Shown here piece by piece: positions 31,461-41,588 of a stretch of 64,000 nucleotides of DNA. How positions within the stretch are numbered: position 1 is the stretch's first letter; each line of letters starts with the position of its first letter. The position numbers and the translations under genes were made by a program. The stretch is from Lysobacter auxotrophicus (GTDB taxonomy: Bacteria; Pseudomonadota; Gammaproteobacteria; Xanthomonadales; Xanthomonadaceae). The stretch is from positions 2,294,001-2,358,000 of the forward strand of contig NZ_AP027041.1 in the NCBI RefSeq assembly GCF_027924565.1, given 5' to 3'. A model generated the notes under the pieces. That model was not told where the DNA came from. It saw nothing but the letters and a program-made list of their open reading frames with translations, and did not search any database.

Positions 31461-32589
31461 TCAAACCGCGTCGGCGCGTTTGGAACCGGCCTCCAGGCCG
31501 GACTTCAGGCTGGCTTCGACGAACTCGTCGAGATCGCCGTCGAGCACCTTCTGCGTGTCGCTGCGCTCGATGCCGGTGCGCAGGTCCTTGATGCGGCTCT
31601 GGTCGAGCACGTAGTTGCGGATCTGGCTGCCCCAGCCGATGTCGGACTTGGTGGCTTCCACCGCGTCGCGCTCGGCGTTGCGCTTCTGGATTTCCAGCTC
31701 GTACAACTTGGCCGCGAGCATCTTCATCGCGCGGTCGCGGTTGGCGTGCTGGCTGCGTTCGGTCTGGCACGCCACCACTATCCCGCTCGGCACGTGCGTG
31801 ATGCGCACGGCGGACTCGGTCTTGTTGACGTGCTGGCCGCCCGCGCCGGAAGACCGGTACACGTCGGTCTTCAGGTCCGCCGGATTGATCTCGATGTCGA
31901 TCTTGTCGTCGACTTCCGGCGATACGAACACGGACGTGAAGCTCGTGTGGCGACGGTTGTCCGAGTCGAACGGCGACTTGCGCACGAGGCGGTGCACGCC
32001 GGTTTCGGTCTTCAGCCAGCCGTACGCGAAATCGCCTTCGACGCGGAACGTCGCCGACTTGATGCCGGCCACGTCGCCGCCGCTGACTTCCATCAGCTCG
32101 GCCTTCCAGCCGCGCGATTCGGCCCAGCGCAGGTACATGCGCAGCAGGATTTCGGCCCAGTCCTGCGCCTCGGTGCCACCGGCGCCGGCCTGGATGTCGA
32201 CGAACGCGTTCGTGCCGTCCATCTTGCCGGAGAACATGCGCTGGAACTCCAGCTTCTCCACGTCCTTGGCGAAGCGCTCGACGTCGTCCACCACGGCCTG
32301 CGCGGTGCCTTCGTCGTTCTCCATCTCGGCCAGTTCGAGCAGTTCGCCCGCGCCAACGAGGCCATCGGTGAGGTCGCGGATGCCGCCGACCACCTTGTCG
32401 AGCGAGGAGCGCTCGCGGCCGAGCGACTGGGCGCGCTCGGCGTCGTTCCAGACGTCCGGGCTTTCCAGTTCGCGGTTTACTTCTTCCAGACGTTCGACCT
32501 TGCGGTCGTAGTCAAAGATACCCCCTGAGCGCATCCAGCCGACCGGTGAGGTCGGCGATGCGCTGGCGGACGGGATTGAGCTCGATCAT
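31461..32589 (-). CDS. prfB: Peptide chain release factor 2 (programmed frameshift)
   Basis: RF2 ends translation at UGA and UAA. The gene is in two frames: 25 codons from the ATG at 32589 ([20 protein letters not shown] onwards) run into an in-frame TGA at 32512-32514, and the remaining frame continues [12 protein letters not shown] to 31461. With a +1 shift the product has 375 residues, the usual RF2 length. It has the codon-recognition SPF motif ([13 protein letters not shown]) and the catalytic GGQ ([14 protein letters not shown]). The shift is autoregulatory: low RF2 lets the ribosome pause at UGA and slip. Confidence 0.97.
32511..32526 (-). promoter_or_regulatory. prfB +1 frameshift site
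   Basis: On the minus strand AGGGGGTATCTTTGAC: an internal Shine-Dalgarno AGGGGG three bases before the slippery CTT, followed by TGA and C. This is the canonical RF2 element with nothing altered. Confidence 0.97.
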
Positions 32590-32677
32590 GTCCAATTCGA
32601 ATCGCGGTGGTGAACCGGCGATTCTAACAAACGATCGCCCGCCGCTGGTTGGCTGGCGGCGGGATGACCGGCCCGAA

Positions 32678-33316
32678 TCAGCGGAAGCGGAACGGTCCCG
32701 GGCGCCAGCCGCTGTCGGAATACCGCCGCACCGGTCCGTAGCTGCTGCTGCCGCCGAACCCGGTGCCGAAGCCGCTGCCGAAGCCGCCGCGGAAGTCGCG
32801 GCTGCGGCGACGGTGCATGCGGTCCTGGAGCTCGTCGCGACGCCCCTCGAGCCAGTCCGCACGGCCGACGCCGGCGGGATCGAGCTTGCGCCGCTCCGCC
32901 TCGCGCTGGCGGAAGTCGCAGAAGTCGTCGTAGGCCTCGATCTCGTGCCGCAGTTCGCGCGCGCAAAGCTCGATCATGATCGCGTCGTCGATGAAGCCGA
33001 GTACCGGGACGTTGTCCGGGATCGCATCGCCGGCCGACACGAAATACGCCAGCGCCGAGCGCACGTTCGCCGCATCCGCCTCCGACAGGCCCCAGCCCTC
33101 GTCGCGCAGCATCGCGATGAGCGAATCGAGCATCAGCAGGCGGTCCTTCACGAACTGCGGCGGATTGCTCTGGCTCGCCTTGGTGGCCAGTTGCGTGGCG
33201 GCTTCGACCACTTCGGCGTTGCTCTTGTCCGACGCTTCCTTTCGGGCCGACTCGACCACACCGGCAAAGTGCTGCAGGTCCTCGTCGGAAAGATCGATGT
33301 TGATCGTCAGCGGCAT
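32678..33316 (-). CDS. DUF1232 (YkvA-like) protein with Gly/Arg-rich tail
   Basis: A 212-residue protein. The middle (LSEADAANVRSALAYFVSAG, DAIPDNVPVLGFIDDAIMIE, then LCARELRHEIEAYDDF) is the DUF1232/YkvA domain, usually a short hydrophobic hairpin of unknown function. The N-terminal 70 residues are charged and helical. The last 45 residues are a low-complexity Arg/Gly/Ser/Phe tail (RRRSRDFRGGFGSGFGTGFG), predicted disordered. The 291 bases upstream (33317-33607) hold its likely promoter but no gene I can support. Function is unknown. Confidence 0.82.
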   Translation of the reverse strand: MPLTINIDLSDEDLQHFAGVVESARKEASDKSNAEVVEAATQLATKASQSNPPQFVKDRLLMLDSLIAMLRDEGWGLSEADAANVRSALAYFVSAGDAIPDNVPVLGFIDDAIMIELCARELRHEIEAYDDFCDFRQREAERRKLDPAGVGRADWLEGRRDELQDRMHRRRSRDFRGGFGSGFGTGFGGSSSYGPVRRYSDSGWRPGPFRFR

Positions 33317-33607
33317 GGCGGAAACTCCCAGTCCGGGGGGAAGGCTGTTCAGCCTAGGTGCGAGAATGTTGCGGCGGCGTCAAGCTTGCTCTTGGACCGA
33401 CGATCCCGGCGGCGGTCGCTTAACCACTCGGCCGACCGCGCGTTTCCTCAGATTCCTCTGGTCGGCAGGCCCGCGCCTGCCCGATAGCCTTGTGCACCTG
33501 CCCCCGCCCGCACGACGCGCTCTCGCCATGACCGTCCTCGTCTCCCCCGTCCGGTTCCCGAAGATCCGCTCCGGCACGCCGGGCCGTGGCTGGCCGGGTG
33601 CAGTGCG
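33317..33607. other. Intergenic stretch with no recognised feature
   Basis: These 291 bases lie between the DUF1232 gene and the first response regulator gene. Open frames here are continuations of antisense shadow frames without a ribosome site. No repeat, hairpin with T-run or convincing promoter was found. Confidence 0.6.
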
Positions 33608-34216
33608 TCAGGAACGCGAGGCGCGCTTCGGATCGGAACTGCCTTGCGCGCCGGCCCCGGCGACGTCGAACGCGCGCGCGTGCCGCTCGATGCAGGAGGA
33701 CGGAAGCGTAAGCATCGACGCGATCTCGTCGGCGGATCGTCCCCGTTCGAACATCTGCGCGATCTCGCGTCGCAGCACGAGGTCGTCCATGTGGCCGGCC
33801 CACTCGTCGATGGCGTCGGCGAAGCTCGGGCTGACGACGATCTCGCCCTGGTCCACCGCACGGATGGCGGCGTTCAATTCCAGCGCAGGCGCGGCCTTGT
33901 CGATCAACCCGCGCACGCCCTGTGCGAGCAATGCGCGAAGCAGGACGCCGTTGGACATGGTCGTCAGCATGATTACGGGCAAATCCGGCCACTGCGTCCG
34001 CACGCGATGAACCATCTCGATGCCATCGACCTGCGCGTCGACCGGCATCGCGTAATCGCAGACGAGGAGATCGCATGGCAGTTCACGCAGTGCGGCGAAC
34101 ACCTCGTCCGGCGACCGCGCACGCGCGACAACCGTCGCGCCCGTCGCGGCGACGGCAGCGCCAACGGAGGCGAGCACCGGAAGGTGGTCGTCCGCGATCA
34201 CGATACGTTTGGACAT
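33608..34216 (-). CDS. Response regulator with degenerate C-terminal HTH
   Basis: A 202-residue regulator. The receiver domain is intact: DD at 9-10, the phosphoacceptor Asp54 (LLVCDYAMP), Thr near 86 and Lys107. The C-terminal part (LVLRREIAQMFERGRSADEI, then ASMLTLPSSCIERHARAF) has the spacing of a LuxR-type helix-turn-helix but lacks the usual LSxREx start and the TVxxH recognition-helix consensus. It may bind DNA differently or act through protein contacts. It pairs with the second regulator 106 bases away and with the divergent BvgS-like kinase; the receivers of both begin with a similar ADDH stretch, which suggests duplication. Confidence 0.82.
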   Translation of the reverse strand: MSKRIVIADDHLPVLASVGAAVAATGATVVARARSPDEVFAALRELPCDLLVCDYAMPVDAQVDGIEMVHRVRTQWPDLPVIMLTTMSNGVLLRALLAQGVRGLIDKAAPALELNAAIRAVDQGEIVVSPSFADAIDEWAGHMDDLVLRREIAQMFERGRSADEIASMLTLPSSCIERHARAFDVAGAGAQGSSDPKRASRS

Positions 34217-34322
34217 GGCTCCGTCGCTCTACGGTGGCCCGCGAAGTGTGCGCCCCGGACCCAGCCCGCACCATCGGAATGGTCCGGATCTCGCCGGGCC
34301 GGCGCTTCGGCGGGCCCGGCCC

Positions 34323-34952
34323 TCAGGCCAGGCCGTTCTCGCGCGCGTATGCGTACAGCTCGGCCTCGTTCTCCAGGCCCAGCTTGCGCATGGCGTCGAT
34401 CTTCTGCCGACTGATGGTCTTCAAGCTGCGATCCAACTGCTGCGCGATCTCTGTTACCGTCAGGCCGGACGCCAGCAGGCGGATGATTTCGGCTTCACGC
34501 GCACTTAACGTGCCGCGCCCACGGCGCTTTCCCATCGCGTCGAGTTGCCGCCGCAGGCCCGGCGAGATGAAGACGCGACGGTTGGCCGCCGACTTCACGG
34601 CGATCGGGAGGATTTCCATGTCCTCGGTCTTTTCGACGATGCCCAGTACGGCGGCGCGCAACAGCGAGTCGAGGATTCCCACGTTTCCGATCATGGTCAT
34701 CACCACGATGGGCAGCAGCGGATGACGCTCGCGCAGCTCCTTGATCATTTCCGTGCCGTCGGGCGATGCGCTGTTGGGCATCGCGAAATCGGTGACGACG
34801 ACGTCGCAGGCTTCGTTGTTCTCGAGCGCCGCCAACAGTTCGTCGCTGGAGCGCGCTTCTCCCACCACGGCGATTCCGCTCGCTTCCAGGATCGCCCTCG
34901 CACCGCGAAGAACCACCGGATGATCGTCGGCCAGAAATACTCGCAGGTTCAT
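34323..34952 (-). CDS. LuxR/NarL-family response regulator, BvgA-like
   Basis: A 209-residue response regulator. The receiver has ADDHPVVLRGARAILE, Asp55 (VVVTDFAMPN) and a Lys in GIVEKTEDME. The C-terminal GerE domain is complete: LSAREAEIIRLLASGLTVTE, IAQQLDRSLKTISRQK, then IDAMRKLG. This is the BvgA/EvgA/RcsB layout. It is divergent from the BvgS-like hybrid kinase with 69 bases between starts, so the kinase is its likely partner. The targets are unknown; the shared intergenic region could carry an autoregulatory site, but I saw no clear palindrome. Confidence 0.92.
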   Translation of the reverse strand: MNLRVFLADDHPVVLRGARAILEASGIAVVGEARSSDELLAALENNEACDVVVTDFAMPNSASPDGTEMIKELRERHPLLPIVVMTMIGNVGILDSLLRAAVLGIVEKTEDMEILPIAVKSAANRRVFISPGLRRQLDAMGKRRGRGTLSAREAEIIRLLASGLTVTEIAQQLDRSLKTISRQKIDAMRKLGLENEAELYAYARENGLA

Positions 34953-35021
34953 GAAGGCGTGCCCGCCGGAGGAGGAAGCTCCGGGCCGATAGGATATCCC
35001 CCTGCGGTCGCGCGCGCACCG

Positions 35022-38000
35022 ATGACGATGTTCCGTCGTGTCGCATGGCTGCTGCTTCTTTTCGTCGCGAACCTCGCGCATGCGGCCTCGATCGGGCTCG
35101 CCGACGACGAACGCCAATGGGTGCGCACGCATCCGACGATCACGGTAGCGACCTACGAAGGCGGCTGGCCGCCGTTCGAACGTTTCGACGGCGAAACATT
35201 GAGTGGACTCGGGCCGGCCTACCTGCACGAGGTTGCGCGCCAGCTCGGCGTGCGCGTCGCCGTTCGTCGCTACCCGACGTGGGAAGAAGCCTTCGCGGCG
35301 GCGTGCCGACGCGAGGTCGACGTGCTGATGAATGTCTCGCTCGTACCCGAGCGCACGCCGTGCCTGGTGTTCACCTCGGCCTATTTCGAAAGCGCACCCG
35401 TGTCGGTCGGCCTGGCGAGCCGCAGCGATCTGCTCGCACCCGATCGACTGGCATCGGCGCGCATCCTCGTCGATCGCGGTGCATCGATCGAACGCTCTGC
35501 GCGCGCGAGGTTTCCGGGCGCGCGGATCACCGCAATCACCGACACGCGACAGGCGCTGGACGCCCTGCAGAACGCGCAGGCCGATGTCTTCATCGGCAAT
35601 CCCTACGTCGCCCGCACGACGCTGGCGACCGGCGCCTGGCCCAAGCTCGCGGTGCTCGCGCCGATCGACCTGCCGCCCGACACGTTGCACTTCGCCGTGC
35701 CGGACGATCGCAAGCCGCTTGCCAGTGCGATCGACAAGGCACTCGCTCGCATCACGCCGCAGCAGCGCCTGGCGTACGAAACCCGGTGGCTTGGTACGTC
35801 GTCCACGGTCGTCGCGCGCGCGGGACGCGTGCCGCTCACGCGCGACGAGGAACTCTGGCTCGAACGCATCGCGCCGCCGCGCGTCGGCTACGCACGCGAC
35901 TGGGAGCCGATCAGCTTTACCGGCGACGACGGACGCATGAGCGGGGTCGCCGCCGAGTACCTGCAGATGATGCACACGCGACTCGGCTTGAAGCTGGGGC
36001 CGGAATCCTCGGGCAACATCGAGGACCTGCGCGGCAAGATGCGTCGTGGCGAAGTCGATCTCGTGCCGATGCCCGCGAGCGCACCGGTCGGTCCGGAGTG
36101 GGCGCTCACGTCGGCCTTCACGCGCGTCAGCCTCGTGATCGTCATGCGCGCCAGTTCGCACGCGATCAGCGGGCTGGACGACCTGGATGGAAAGCGCATC
36201 ACCATCGTGGGCCCCGCGCGTGCCGCACGGGTCAAGGCGGAGTTGCCCAACGCCGTGGTCGTGCGGGTGGACGGCATTCCGGCGGGACTGCGCGCAGTGG
36301 AACGCGGAGACGCGGACGCCTATGTCGGCGACATGATGTCGGCGGACCGGCCGCTTCGAAGCGGCCAGTACCCGACGCTCCGTCTCGCCGCGCCGGCCGG
36401 CTTCGACGAAGACCTGGTGTTCGGCGTACGAGGGCAGTACCAGCCGTTGATCCCGCTGATCAACCGCATGCTCGGCGCGTTGAGTGCCGAAGAGCGTCAG
36501 CGCATTCGTTCCGGGTGGCTCGAAGTGCAGGTCTCCAGCGGCGTGGAGTGGCGCACCGTCGCGATCGGCGCTGCATTCGCCGCTCTGCTGGTCTCGGTCC
36601 TCGCGTTCGCCTACGTGCGCACGCGCAAGGAGATCCGCCGCCGGGAGAAGACCGACAGCCTGATGCGCGATCTCACGCGCAACCTGCCCGGCGTGATCTT
36701 CAAGATCACGCGCGATCCGCAGGGCAACTACGCCCTGCCCTTCGTCGCCGGCAACACGCGCGAGCTGTTCGGGCTGGAGCACGATGAACTCATCTCCGGC
36801 GAGCAACCCGGATTGGCGGGCCGCATCGACGATCGCGATCGCGAACGACTGCGCGCGACCTTCGACCAATCGACCATGGACCTCGCGCCGATCGAGATGG
36901 ATTTCCGCACGGTTGCGCCCGCGCCGGATCGCTGGATACGCGTGAGCGCGGTGGCGCGTCGCCTCGACGACAACCTGGTGCACTGGAGCGGGTACTGGGT
37001 CGACGTGAGCGCGTCGCATCGCCAGTCCGAAGCGCTCGACGCCGCGCGGCAATCGGCGGAGAACGCCGCGGCCGGGCGCGCCAACTTCCTCGCGGCGATG
37101 AGCCACGAGATCCGCACCCCGATGGCCGGCATCGCCGGCATCATCGAGATCCTCTCGCGCAGCGACGTCAACGACGACCAGCAGTACCTGCTGGGCCTCG
37201 TGCAGGATTACGCGCAGGCGCTGCGGACGATCCTCGACGACGTGCTGGACCTGTCGCGCATCGAGGCCGGACGGCTCGACCTGGAACCGGTCGAGACGGA
37301 CCTGCGCGTCCTGGTGTGCAACTCGATCGAGCTGGTGCTGGATCTGTGCCGGCGCAAGAACCTGCGTTGCCTGTGCCACATCGATCCGTCGCTCGCCGGC
37401 ATGGTGCTGGCGGATCCGACGCGCTTGCGGCAGATCCTGCTGAACCTGCTGAGCAATGCGATCAAGTTCACCAGCGCGGGGTACGTCGCCGTGTCGCTGC
37501 AGGTGCTCGACAGCGGCGACGGGTCGCAGACGTGGTGCCTTGCCGTCGCGGACACGGGCATCGGCATCGCATCGGAAGAACAGGGCAAGCTGTTCCACGC
37601 GTTCACGCAGGCCGAAGCGAGCACGTCGCGCACCTACGGCGGCAGCGGATTGGGACTCGCGATCTGCCGGCGGTTGTCCGAACTGATGCAGGCGCGACTG
37701 GAACTGGAAAGCGCGCGCGGCGCCGGCACGCGCGTGTCGCTCACACTCACCACGCCCGTCGTCCGGCTCGACGCGCGCGACCCGTCGCTCGACGGCCGCA
37801 CGATCGCGATTCGTGCTGGCGACGAGGACGTTGCCGACGGGCTGCAGGAGATCGTCATCGCATTCGGCGCGCAGATCGTCGAGCCTTCGCAGGCGCAACT
37901 GCTGCTCGCCGACGCGCCCTCGCCCGCGGGCGAGGGCGCGCACTGGGTGCCGCTCGTGCCCGACAGTCCGGACGCGCCGCGTCATGCCATCGTCATCGAG

Positions 38001-38891
38001 CCGCTGCTTCCCACGCATGTGCGCCGTGCCTGCGTCCTGGCGCTCGACGACGCGTCGACCCGCGAACATGCAAGCGCGCCCATCACGATGCGCGCCGGCC
38101 ACATCCTCGTGGCGGAAGACCATTCGACCAACCAGCTGCTGATGAAGCGCCAGCTTGCCGAACTGGGCCTGCGCTGCCGCGTGGTGTCCACCGGCGAACA
38201 GGCGCTGGCGGCGTTGGCGACGGACCATTTCGACCTGCTCATCACCGACCTGCAGATGCCCGGCATGAGTGGTTTCGAGCTCGCGCGCGCGATCCGTGCC
38301 GGCGAAGCCGCCGAAGGCCGGACTGCATTGCCCATCCTTGCGCTCAGCGCGGGCGTGATGTCAGAGGACGAAGTGCGCTGCCGGGACGCCGGCATGAACG
38401 GCCACCTGCGCAAACCCATCGGGCTGGATGAACTCATGCGACAACTGGAACGCTGGCTACCCCACGAAGCGCGGGACGAAGCGGGCGACGCGACGGCATC
38501 GGCGCCGCTGCAACAACCGCCGCCCCCGCTCGAAGCGCCACTGGAGCCGCTCGATCTGGCGATGCTCACGCGCAGCTTCGGGTCGCGCGAAACGGTCTGC
38601 CTCGTCGCCGAAGACCTGCTCGCCAACCTGCCCAGCGATCTCGACGATCTGCGGCGCTCGCACGATGAGCACGACGCGGAGCGCATGGGCCGTGCGCTGC
38701 ATCGCATCACCGGCGCGCTGGGGACGTTCGGCTATCGCAACCTCGCCGCCGACCTGCGCACCGCGACACGCATCGCCGAAGCCGGCACGCTCGTGCCGTC
38801 GGACGAAATCGCACGCCTGCTGCGCCGCGTCGACGGCACGCTGTTCGAACTCGGCGAGTTCGTGACGAAGAGCAAGGCGGGCGTCGACTAG
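35022..38891 (+). CDS. BvgS/EvgS-like hybrid sensor histidine kinase
   Basis: A 1289-residue unorthodox kinase. In order: Sec signal (1-22); two periplasmic solute-binding (Venus flytrap) domains at about 35-258 and 270-502; one membrane span near 512-533; a PAS domain near 550-665; HisKA with His695 (AAMSHEIRTPMAG); HATPase with N-box LLSNAIKF and GGSGLG; a segment at about 915-1015 that resembles a receiver without the acceptor Asp; a receiver with Asp1076 (ITDLQMPGMSG) and Lys1131; a proline-rich linker; and an HPt with His1227 (LHRITGALGTFG), in which the usual Lys after the His is replaced. The ligand is unknown. Two divergent response regulators are the likely partners. Confidence 0.93.
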   Translation: MTMFRRVAWLLLLFVANLAHAASIGLADDERQWVRTHPTITVATYEGGWPPFERFDGETLSGLGPAYLHEVARQLGVRVAVRRYPTWEEAFAAACRREVDVLMNVSLVPERTPCLVFTSAYFESAPVSVGLASRSDLLAPDRLASARILVDRGASIERSARARFPGARITAITDTRQALDALQNAQADVFIGNPYVARTTLATGAWPKLAVLAPIDLPPDTLHFAVPDDRKPLASAIDKALARITPQQRLAYETRWLGTSSTVVARAGRVPLTRDEELWLERIAPPRVGYARDWEPISFTGDDGRMSGVAAEYLQMMHTRLGLKLGPESSGNIEDLRGKMRRGEVDLVPMPASAPVGPEWALTSAFTRVSLVIVMRASSHAISGLDDLDGKRITIVGPARAARVKAELPNAVVVRVDGIPAGLRAVERGDADAYVGDMMSADRPLRSGQYPTLRLAAPAGFDEDLVFGVRGQYQPLIPLINRMLGALSAEERQRIRSGWLEVQVSSGVEWRTVAIGAAFAALLVSVLAFAYVRTRKEIRRREKTDSLMRDLTRNLPGVIFKITRDPQGNYALPFVAGNTRELFGLEHDELISGEQPGLAGRIDDRDRERLRATFDQSTMDLAPIEMDFRTVAPAPDRWIRVSAVARRLDDNLVHWSGYWVDVSASHRQSEALDAARQSAENAAAGRANFLAAMSHEIRTPMAGIAGIIEILSRSDVNDDQQYLLGLVQDYAQALRTILDDVLDLSRIEAGRLDLEPVETDLRVLVCNSIELVLDLCRRKNLRCLCHIDPSLAGMVLADPTRLRQILLNLLSNAIKFTSAGYVAVSLQVLDSGDGSQTWCLAVADTGIGIASEEQGKLFHAFTQAEASTSRTYGGSGLGLAICRRLSELMQARLELESARGAGTRVSLTLTTPVVRLDARDPSLDGRTIAIRAGDEDVADGLQEIVIAFGAQIVEPSQAQLLLADAPSPAGEGAHWVPLVPDSPDAPRHAIVIEPLLPTHVRRACVLALDDASTREHASAPITMRAGHILVAEDHSTNQLLMKRQLAELGLRCRVVSTGEQALAALATDHFDLLITDLQMPGMSGFELARAIRAGEAAEGRTALPILALSAGVMSEDEVRCRDAGMNGHLRKPIGLDELMRQLERWLPHEARDEAGDATASAPLQQPPPPLEAPLEPLDLAMLTRSFGSRETVCLVAEDLLANLPSDLDDLRRSHDEHDAERMGRALHRITGALGTFGYRNLAADLRTATRIAEAGTLVPSDEIARLLRRVDGTLFELGEFVTKSKAGVD

Positions 38892-38910
38892 ACCTCGACG
38901 CGTGTCACCG

Positions 38911-40629
38911 TCAGGCGACGGTTTCGCGATGCACGACGACCAGCTGCACGGCGTCGCCGCCGCGGTAGTCGTCGGTTTCCAGGCGATAGGCGATGCGCAC
39001 GCGCGGCGGCGGCGCCAGCCCAGCCCATCCACCGAATTCGATCGCATTGAGGCGTCGGCCCGACAGGCCGAGTTCGAGCTTCAGGTGCCGCTCGCCAACA
39101 ACGCGCCAGCCGAGCACGTCGAACTCGCCGTCGAACTGCGGCTCGGCGAAACCTTGTCCCCACGGGCCGCCATCGCGCAGCGCTTCGGCACTGGCGCGGC
39201 AGAAGTCGTCGGCGGCCAGCTCGCCGTCGCTGAGCAGCTCCGCCTGCAGCAACTCGGGCGTGAGCAGCGAGGTGGCGCAATCGCGGAACGCGTCGGCGAA
39301 GGCCGCGAAGGCGTCGGCGCGCAACGATAGCCCCGCCGCCATGGCATGGCCGCCGAAGCGTTCGATCAGCTGCGGATGGCGCGCGTGCACGTCGGCGAGC
39401 GCGTCACGGATGTGGAAGCCGGGGATCGAACGCGCCGAGCCGCGCAGCGAATCGCTTCCCGGCTCCGCCGGCGCGAACGCGATGACCGGCCGGTGCAATC
39501 GCTCCTTCATCTTCGACGCGACCAGGCCGACCACGCCCGGATGCCATTCCGCGTCGAACAGGCAGATCGCCGCGGGCGCCGCGCCTTCGCCGATCGCAAC
39601 GCGATCGAGCGCGCGTTCGGCGTCGTCGGTCATCTGCTGCTGCACCGCGCGGCGCTCGCTGTTGATCTCGTTGAGCGTCGCGGCGATGTCGCGCGCGCGC
39701 GAGAGGTCGTTGGTGAGCAGGCACTCGATGCCCAGCGACATGTCCTCCAGCCGGCCCGCTGCGTTGAGACGCGGCCCGACCGCGTAGCCGATGTCGGTCG
39801 CGGTAAGTCGCGCCGGATCGCGCTGCGAGACTTCGATCAGCGCACGAAGCCCGGCACTGCCCTGCCCCGCGCGCAAGCGGCGCAGGCCGGCGGCGACAAG
39901 CGCGCGGTTGTTCGCGTCCAGCGGCACGACGTCGGCCACGGTGCCGACGGCAACGAGGTCGAGCAGCACCTGCAGGTCCGGCTCTTTTCCGACGAACGCC
40001 CCCTGCTCGCGCAGGCGGCGGCGCAACGCGAGCAGCACGTAGAACATCACGCCGACGCCGGCGAGGCACTTGCTCGGGAACGCATCGCCGCGCAGGTTCG
40101 GATCGACGATCGCGTCGGCGGGCGGGAGGTGTTCGCCCGGCAGGTGATGGTCGGTGACCAGCACTTGCCAGCCGCGCGCCTTCGCCGCCGTGATGCCGGC
40201 GTGGCACGCGATGCCGTGATCGACCGTGACCAGCAGATCCGGCTGCAGCGCGGCGAGTTCGTCCACCAGCGCAGGCGAAAGGCCGTAACCGTGCACGATG
40301 CGGTTGGGCACGGCGTGCGACACGCGCTTCGCGCCGAGCATGCGCAGGCCGCGCACGCCGACCGCGCAGGCGGTGGCGCCGTCGCAATCGAAATCGCCGA
40401 CAACGACGATGTGGCGGTCTTCCGCAATGGCGGTGGCGAGCAGCGCGGTTGCCGCGTCGAGGCCGCCGAGCAGTTCCGGCGGATGCAGGTGCGCCAGTCG
40501 CGGCTGCGCGAGTTCCATCGTCGTCGCCCCGCGCGATGCGTACAGGCGACGCAACAGCTCCGGCATGGAATCCGGCCAAAGACCCGGATCGACGCAATCG
40601 CGACGACGCAGACGCGCGACCGGTTTCAT
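38911..40629 (-). CDS. recJ: Single-stranded-DNA-specific exonuclease RecJ
   Basis: 5'-3' exonuclease in recombination and mismatch repair. The 572-residue DHH-superfamily protein shows motif I DFDCDGATACAVG, the DHG motif VTVDHGIACHAG, the DHH motif VTDHHLPGE and LVAVGTVADVVPLD; the DHHA1 domain carries ERFGGHAMAAG. The C-terminal OB fold ends in QLVVVHRETVA. The ATG at 40629 overlaps the rpfE stop (ATGA), so it is co-translated with rpfE and greA upstream. Its stop faces that of the hybrid kinase at only 19 bases. Confidence 0.96.
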   Translation of the reverse strand: MKPVARLRRRDCVDPGLWPDSMPELLRRLYASRGATTMELAQPRLAHLHPPELLGGLDAATALLATAIAEDRHIVVVGDFDCDGATACAVGVRGLRMLGAKRVSHAVPNRIVHGYGLSPALVDELAALQPDLLVTVDHGIACHAGITAAKARGWQVLVTDHHLPGEHLPPADAIVDPNLRGDAFPSKCLAGVGVMFYVLLALRRRLREQGAFVGKEPDLQVLLDLVAVGTVADVVPLDANNRALVAAGLRRLRAGQGSAGLRALIEVSQRDPARLTATDIGYAVGPRLNAAGRLEDMSLGIECLLTNDLSRARDIAATLNEINSERRAVQQQMTDDAERALDRVAIGEGAAPAAICLFDAEWHPGVVGLVASKMKERLHRPVIAFAPAEPGSDSLRGSARSIPGFHIRDALADVHARHPQLIERFGGHAMAAGLSLRADAFAAFADAFRDCATSLLTPELLQAELLSDGELAADDFCRASAEALRDGGPWGQGFAEPQFDGEFDVLGWRVVGERHLKLELGLSGRRLNAIEFGGWAGLAPPPRVRIAYRLETDDYRGGDAVQLVVVHRETVA

Positions 40630-41588
40630 TCGTGAGCGTTCCCGGGCGTGTCGGCCGTCGCGGCGATGAACGAGGCGAGCGGGCGGCGCCAGAAACGCCA
40701 GCGCTGCGAACGCGCGAGGTCGTAGCGCGCGCCGTCGTCGAATTCGACCCGCAACTGCTTCAGTTCTCCGCCCCCGACAGCCTGGAGCAGCGGCGCGAAC
40801 CAGCCGCGTTCGAGCAGCGCGAGATCGCGCGCATCGCGCAGGTCGTACAAGGTATTGCCTGCGTCGGCGCGGCCGTTCCACGAGGCCGGCTTGGCCGCCA
40901 CGTCCACGCCACCGATCGCGGCGAGCGCCGTCACGCTTTCGTCGTCGCTCGCGATACGCGTGTAAGCGGACTGCACGCGGTCGGGCAGCGTGCCCGCGCC
41001 CCAGAACCACAGCGAATTGACCGGCGCGAGCCCGGCGGCGGCGCGTTGCGCGTTCAACGGATGGTTGTGCAGCACGACCTGCGCCTCGCTCAGCAATGCA
41101 CGCCAGCGGCGGCCGTCCGGGCCTTGCGGTAATTCGTCGAACAGATCGGCGCCAAGCGCCTGCTCCGGCGCGGTGAATTCCGGCCACTTTGCGCCGGTCG
41201 GCAGGCGCAGGTACCAGCGCGACGGCGCGGGGGCATCGATCGGGAAACCCGCATCGCCGAACAGCGGCTTGAGCGGTTTGAGCAGCGCGGCGGCGTCCTG
41301 CGCGTTCAAGCCCAGCGCTTCGCCGTAGGACAGCAGACGCGCGCCATTGATGTCGGGCCGCACGTAGGCGGGATCGGCGCGAAGCCACGCCGCACCCGCC
41401 GCATCGCCTGCATCGCGCTGGCGCGAGGCCGCTGCCACCGGCCAGCCGCGCGGCAGGACGTCGAGAAGGTTCGACAATGCATCGCCGACGCGCTCGCTGC
41501 GATCGGCGCGCGCCAGGGCGCGTCCGGTGTCGACGGACAGGCGCTGGCCGCCGAAGCGTGCGCGCGGCGGCAGCAGCAGCGTGATCAT
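40626..41588 (-). CDS. rpfE: RpfE homologue
   Basis: A 320-residue cytosolic protein matching the xanthomonad RpfE family: start MITLLLPPRARFGGQRL, central WYLRLPTGAKWPEFTAPEQA and VVLHNHPLNAQRAAAG, and LAPVNSLWFWGAGTLP near the middle. RpfE is sometimes annotated as phosphoglycerate mutase-like; I see no catalytic motif that proves this. In Xanthomonas, rpfE lies between recJ and greA, as here, and belongs to the wider regulation-of-pathogenicity-factors region. It is separated from greA by eight bases and overlaps recJ, forming a greA-rpfE-recJ operon. Confidence 0.85.
   Translation of the reverse strand: MITLLLPPRARFGGQRLSVDTGRALARADRSERVGDALSNLLDVLPRGWPVAAASRQRDAGDAAGAAWLRADPAYVRPDINGARLLSYGEALGLNAQDAAALLKPLKPLFGDAGFPIDAPAPSRWYLRLPTGAKWPEFTAPEQALGADLFDELPQGPDGRRWRALLSEAQVVLHNHPLNAQRAAAGLAPVNSLWFWGAGTLPDRVQSAYTRIASDDESVTALAAIGGVDVAAKPASWNGRADAGNTLYDLRDARDLALLERGWFAPLLQAVGGGELKQLRVEFDDGARYDLARSQRWRFWRRPLASFIAATADTPGNAHE

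Follow-up and report, generated by a model that had tools for sequence, protein, structure and literature searches.

A BvgS/RocS1-type phosphorelay locus in Lysobacter auxotrophicus encodes a second response regulator with an intact receiver and a remodelled output domain

The window analyzed here, a stretch of 64,000 nucleotides from Lysobacter auxotrophicus, contains a gene cluster encoding a large hybrid kinase (K) and two response regulators (A and B). All three are real open reading frames, and they bear the main features that an earlier, sequence-only reading of this DNA had claimed for them. The features dealt with below are the following.

32678-33316: DUF1232 gene, situated between prfB and B
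33608-34216, minus strand: regulator B, 202 aa, Asp54; RcsB-like receiver and (predicted) remodelled three-helix C-terminal domain
33677-33781, minus strand: remodelled HTH segment of B, codons 146-180
34217-34322, minus strand: gap of 106 bases from A to the downstream gene B
34323-34952, minus strand: regulator A, 209 aa, Asp55; RcsB/BvgA-type response regulator with an intact LuxR-type HTH
34953-35021, no strand: divergent promoter region of 69 bases separating K from A
35022-38891, plus strand: kinase K, 1289 aa; BvgS/RocS1-type hybrid kinase

The gene order is lysS, prfB, the DUF1232 gene, B, A, K (divergent from A, as had been read), recJ, a gene at 40626-41588 and greA. The gene at 40626-41588, which gave weak phosphoglycerate-mutase-like matches in NCBIfam and none in Pfam, is presumably rpfE, and the name lysS is likewise one that we assume. 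The locus had been placed between prfB and recJ-rpfE-greA; these are indeed its flanks, except that the DUF1232 gene intervenes between prfB and B.

K gave matches above the Pfam cut-offs to SBP_bac_3 (twice, E 2.8e-19), HisKA, HATPase_c, Response_reg and Hpt. It has the anatomy of the BvgS family: two tandem periplasmic SBP_bac_3 or Venus-flytrap (VFT) domains, as the sequence-only reading had it, then a histidine kinase, a receiver with its Asp and an HPt domain with its His. The phosphosites are His695 (HisKA), Asp1076 (receiver) and His1227 (HPt). Judged by eye, the N-terminus is signal-like and there is one hydrophobic stretch resembling a transmembrane segment; the linker is PAS-like, with a PAS_3 match under the cut-off. 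The periplasmic half of K is matched at E 1e-20 or better in 59 of 395 genomes of the family. Two stretches of viral contigs fitted a search pattern, and neither encodes a relative of K.

We fetched 57 loci around K-type kinases, including the one in the window. An A-like regulator is encoded in 46 of them (in one case at only 26 bits), and is absent from the fetched stretch of the other 11 (L182, L183, L184, L187, L188, L192, L193, L194, L204, L205 and L207). One of these 11, L204, is that of a second BvgS-like kinase, K2 (genome positions 3933128-3937243), which has 33% and 40% identity to K in two stretches; no A-like regulator was found in the stretch fetched around it, nor around the similar kinases of the three sister genomes (L192-L194).

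K and the frames longer than 1000 aa scoring above 400 bits were aligned in 54 rows. Every row has the H-box His and the receiver Asp, and 49 of the 54 have the HPt His. The replacement of a Lys after His1227 had been noted as a peculiarity of K. The third residue after this His is indeed Thr, but Lys occupies that position in only two of the 49 rows bearing the His. Since Lys is so rare there, Thr is a trait of the family, and we reject the possibility that its presence marks a lesion.

Ahead of the receiver, K residues ~927-1008 form a segment that is found in 31 of the 54 rows and had been described as receiver-like and lacking the Asp. This description fails in its detail: Asp964 sits in the phosphoacceptor column, where 27 of the 31 rows have Asp. 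The beta-5 Lys is found in none of the 31 rows, all of which keep the Pro that follows it. Only three of 62 cells in the acid-pair columns hold D or E, in a part of the alignment where the register is uncertain, and the row of the window has acidic residues a few positions beyond these columns. On the evidence of the alignment the segment is a pseudo-receiver, though not through a missing Asp. Across loci L164-L206 it is missing from 23 of the 54 rows, and a single genus (g30) accounts for 20 of the 23; its presence or absence amounts to gain or loss of a domain within the hybrid kinase. The predicted model of residues 672-1289 was poor (mean pLDDT 54.6, from a 4-row alignment) and its PDB matches were filled by the receiver; the kinase part and the pseudo-receiver were not judged from it.

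Regulator A scored above the Pfam cut-offs for Response_reg and GerE, and its best NCBIfam model is RcsB, under the cut-off. It has the make-up of a NarL/RcsB-type regulator: a receiver with its Asp and a LuxR-type HTH with contact residues, of which it keeps 9 of the 12 known from RcsB. K shares with BvgS the order of two VFTs, histidine kinase, receiver and HPt, and A corresponds to the HTH partner of the BvgS-BvgA and EvgS-EvgA systems, as these are described in passages of PMC5829827. Differences are the pseudo-receiver, which those passages do not mention for BvgS, and the addition of an extra regulator lacking most DNA contacts; moreover, K reaches 266 bits against the EvgS model, whose cut-off is 1995. 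By their anatomy, K and A would constitute an ordinary BvgS/RocS1-type relay.

Regulator B is a different matter. The only domain in B that passes a Pfam cut-off is Response_reg. GerE was not found by Pfam in any of the four copies of B known to us (see below), and EAL was not found among the Pfam families matching at E up to 1. Models of HTH domains do match residues ~148-181 in all four copies under their cut-offs: in the window, HTH_38 at 148-179 (E 0.007, 16.5 bits versus 27), and in L. soli, whose copy comes nearest to an HTH model, HTH_23 (E 9e-5, 22.6 bits versus 24.6).

We then counted DNA-contact residues. In the RcsB-DNA structure, according to the portions of PMC5829831 that describe it, bases are contacted by K180 and S184, nine side chains contact the backbone, and K192 completes the contacts; these 12 positions were located by MAFFT alignment or by anchoring on the turn glycine. 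The comparison, like the tree and conservation counts below, used 47 regulators from the 57 loci: four A, four B and 39 others beside related kinases, of which A and the 39 are called the 43 partners. Left out were the regulators of L167, L169, L172 and L196, which align with A up to residue 205-206, of L190 (26 bits) and of L191 (a short broken contig). With both alignments, the four copies of B keep 0, 0, 0 and 1 of the 12 contacts, and the 43 partners 6-9. Scored against the partners' own consensus, the values are 1, 1, 1 and 3 for B and 6-11 for the partners. All four B differ at positions 181, 183, 185 and 192, which are near-invariant in the partners, and each has Glu at 183; position 169 is Asp or Glu in two. 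Position 180 is Ser in B, as it is in 16 of the 43 partners, and the Arg of 34 of the 43 partners at 184 is retained in all four B. None of the four copies has the KLG motif or the sequence of the fourth helix.

The predicted model of B consists of the receiver followed by three helices (146-157, 162-169 and 173-190) and has no fourth HTH helix. Its mean pLDDT is 87-92 at residues 141-180 and 60 at 181-190, and it lies below 50 from 187; the underlying alignment contained regulators with an intact HTH, which favours an HTH-like fold. Compared with RcsB structures it gave Z 19.6-21.5 over 130-156 residues with an rmsd of 1.8-2.6, a likeness that rests mainly on residues 1-144. The normal LuxR fold with DNA-binding residues, which would have spoken against the sequence-only reading, was thus not seen. 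Judged by these features, B is derived from the class of DNA-binding NarL/RcsB-type regulators, but is no longer a member of it.

It might still be argued that B binds DNA, with a new specificity provided by a diverged three-helix domain. The sub-threshold HTH matches in all four copies, closest in L. soli, are in line with this, as are the constraint on the predicted HTH-like trihelix and the retained Arg at 184. Nevertheless, the four changed contact positions, the Glu at 183, the acidic residue at 169 in two copies and the fourth helix that is absent from the model make DNA binding by B very improbable.

Loss of contacts could also mean that the gene is falling apart, and the last ~20 residues of B do look unconstrained (pairwise dN/dS 0.38-1.72). 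Yet the frame is open in all four genomes, and codons 146-180 have a dN/dS of 0.30 (95% CI 0.16-0.52), with 19 of the 35 residues invariant, among them E177, R178 and H179, the second of which is common to most partners. The receiver, with a pooled dN/dS of 0.14 (95% bootstrap CI 0.09-0.21), is constrained as well, both intervals lying below 1. We therefore rejected B as a decaying pseudogene, an explanation whose chance is close to negligible. The helical (predicted) and constrained segment 146-180 also sets B apart from single-domain receivers of the VemR/MrrA type. Because the three helices are still under constraint, the DNA-binding end of B appears to be repurposed, or remodelled, rather than in decay. 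The HTH had been called eroded, which holds in that most contacts are lost and no HTH model exceeds its cut-off, but not in view of the three predicted helices and the purifying selection on them.

The receiver of B is intact, as had been claimed from Asp54: D9, D10, D54 and K107 do not vary across an alignment of 16 rows and T85 is present in all four B, so that the acid pair, Asp, Thr and Lys of a NarL/RcsB-type receiver are all there. Conservation in at least 70% of the 39 other partners marks out 50 receiver positions; 38 of these are retained by all four copies of B, and A retains the same number. Pairwise receiver dN/dS is 0.10-0.18 for B and 0.055-0.115 for A. The changes in B are concentrated in helix 1, where four of five family-conserved positions (12, 17, 19 and 23) are changed in all four copies, versus 6 of 45 in the rest of the receiver (hypergeometric P ~0.004, for a comparison made post hoc once the list had been seen). 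Position 115 is changed too. In RcsB-like regulators, the face of helix 1 docks the HPt or kinase and forms the alpha1-alpha5 dimer, and position 115 lies in the dimer face. Since helix 1 is changed in B, transfer from K to B cannot be assumed, and B may have another phosphodonor or another dimer partner than A.

A simple role for such a protein would be that of a phosphate sink, in which B just drains the HPt of K and thereby sharpens or damps activation of A, its C-terminal domain having no partner. An intact and constrained receiver, few remaining DNA-contact residues and linkage to K would all suit a sink. However, a sink has no need of C-terminal helices held at a dN/dS of 0.30, the docking helix of B is remodelled, and we consider this explanation unlikely.

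The likeness to the Rcs system suggests another possibility. RcsB is the best NCBIfam match of A and the second best of B (after MctR, all under the cut-offs). RcsA, BglJ and others form heterodimers with RcsB. B could be an anti-activator that pairs with A, poisoning or retargeting its DNA binding, and the constraint on the HTH-derived module would fit such a role. On the other hand, the known partners of RcsB retain an HTH, B is changed at helix 1 and position 115 in the alpha1-alpha5 dimer face, and it is without the fourth helix, through which LuxR-type HTHs dimerise. A heterodimer of this kind is distinctly unlikely. RcsA itself, which keeps its HTH and is without a phosphoacceptor, is the reverse of B, which keeps the phosphoacceptor and loses the HTH contacts; in addition, the HPt resides within K here and in a separate protein in the Rcs layout.

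We surveyed related genomes for B. Among the 395 family genomes it occurs in its own genome and in three others at 76-79% identity, the next best match being 41%; among the 80 relatives kept of 84, close orthologues (74-78%) are present in L. changpingensis, L. arvi and L. soli only, and an order-wide draw of 299 genomes gave a match at E 1e-40 in one, that of the window. Every orthologue adjoins K-A, so that K, A and B occur together in the same four genomes; these are closely related, and the co-occurrence with K-A counts as about one event. A survey of Lysobacter synteny had been suggested by the sequence-only reading, and it found the arrangement DUF1232-B-A/K-recJ at the same chromosomal place in 4 of 12 genomes of the genus. 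K-A-B was not found in the other eight within the 6 kb fetched beside recJ. In two of these (G078 and G235) the DUF1232 gene alone separates recJ from prfB, in three (G223, G045 and G181) the interval is filled by other frames, and in three (G210, G165 and G105) the fetched stretch ended before prfB. The interval from prfB-DUF1232 to recJ (32534-38914 in the window; L227-L234) thus varies in content across the genus. In two genomes of another genus (G044 and G077), a K-type kinase lies near prfB with a single regulator each.

These data also bear on the possibility that B serves another kinase, for instance K2, and owes its present place to history. The missing A-like regulator near K2 and a docking helix unlike that of A would agree with this. 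Against it, B follows K-A in four of four genomes with its gene adjoining A, and genus genomes without B carry kinases that are similarly distant from K. Service to another kinase is quite improbable.

Two regulators beside a K-type kinase are also encoded in G223 and in G145 C34 (loci L177 and L203), and there each has kept its HTH. Pairing of regulators is therefore recurrent, and it is the loss of DNA contacts that is special to the present locus.

Where B came from was addressed with receiver trees. Recent duplication of A cannot account for B: forcing A and B into one clade lowered lnL by 27 (p-AU 0.0003, in a test run after the first tree had been seen), and together with the trees this led us to reject the idea. 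A clade of A and B with RR_G029, RR_G044 and RR_G077 was not rejected (p = 0.185). The tree used for the AU test dropped seven further long-branch rows and the six outgroups from the window's own genome. B is on a long branch and its placement is otherwise unsure; one tree joined it to the G145b and G343x regulators, a grouping that resembles long-branch attraction and that we set aside. In the phosphoacceptor loop, B, A and RcsB all have an insertion following the MP, and from this shared insertion it follows that B belongs to their regulator family, through either an older split or a transfer.

By function, and as an analogy, the nearest known system to K-A-B is Roc1 of Pseudomonas aeruginosa (RocS1-RocA1-RocR). 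As outlined in parts of PMC2696094, PMC3083521 and PMC12051241, RocS1 carries an HPt in addition to two SBP_bac_3 domains, RocA1 is an HTH regulator, and RocR is a regulator without DNA binding that interacts with the HPts of both RocS1 and RocS2, antagonises RocA1 and represses the RocA1 target. K-A-B likewise combines a two-SBP_bac_3 kinase with an HPt, one HTH regulator and a second regulator that, in the case of B, is predicted not to bind DNA. The two differ in that RocR ends in an EAL phosphodiesterase and B in a remodelled remnant of an HTH, and in gene arrangement, rocR sharing an operon with the kinase gene whereas B lies downstream of A. A second parallel is HpaS of Xanthomonas campestris, which, according to sections of PMC7036368, uses HrpG and the receiver-only VemR in a one-to-many branch; the proposed branch at K also comprises one kinase and two regulators. 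VemR, however, is an orphan single-domain receiver, whereas the receiver of B is followed by a helical module and its gene adjoins that of the presumed kinase partner pair. Lacking the EAL domain of RocR yet having more than the bare receiver of VemR, B would represent a variant of the known branched relays. Our literature search, which covered open-licence papers and whose silence is weak evidence, found no report of this locus or of a BvgS-like kinase accompanied by an HTH-less second regulator.

Taken together, the arrangement proposed by the sequence-only reading, in which a single kinase has one regulator that binds DNA and another that probably does not, is supported by the contacts lost in four of four copies and by the linkage of K, A and B in the same four genomes. 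We tentatively favour, as plausible though not quite probable, that B is a second, non-DNA-binding branch of the K-A relay that works by protein contact. A signal would be sensed at the two Venus-flytrap domains of K and phosphate would pass from His695 to Asp1076, His1227 and then Asp55 of A, which would bind DNA, as the anatomy of the family suggests. The intact active site and the gene linkage lead us to infer that B is phosphorylated too, most likely by K, as the second branch of the relay; it might then lower or redirect signalling from K to A through protein-protein contact. K-A-B would in this way work like Roc1 or HpaS/HrpG/VemR, with a regulator of changed HTH in place of RocR or VemR.

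Already known are branched relays in which the second regulator does not bind DNA; in the cases considered here, its output is enzymatic (RocR) or it has no output domain (VemR). In the present locus, an HTH regulator has lost most of its DNA contacts while its fold and receiver stay constrained. It is conceivable, if somewhat unlikely, that a DNA-binding regulator lost most of its contact residues and its dimer helix and so became a protein-binding module, gated by phosphorylation and controlling the pathway of its sister regulator, with a new conserved contact surface around E177-R178-H179 for A, K or RNA polymerase. If true, a transcription factor would have become an anti-activator within one and the same phosphorelay. 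The four sister genomes with the changed form, set against relatives that keep the contacts, make the step from activator to possible modulator open to direct study.

Finally, the intergenic regions were inspected. The K/A promoter region contains GGATATCC, common to all four genomes; in 18 other partner regulators, the 190 bases ahead of the gene do not contain it. We do not claim it as an RcsB-like operator, and it may merely represent -10 boxes. In the A-B gap, the blocks TCCGGA..TCCGATGG and GCGCACACT are kept in all four genomes and much of the rest varies; these blocks are a possible promoter or binding site for B. The gap folds strongly, at -56.8 kcal/mol in the window and at -49.1 to -55.1 in the other three genomes. 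We dropped the idea that it holds a terminator or attenuator, the folds differing in form by eye and a T tract being absent. Elsewhere in the window, at the start of prfB (32512-32590), a short frame ends in TGA where the main frame opens, and the minus strand reads AGGGGG TAT CTT TGA C, a layout that we take to be that of the programmed +1 frameshift of RF2.
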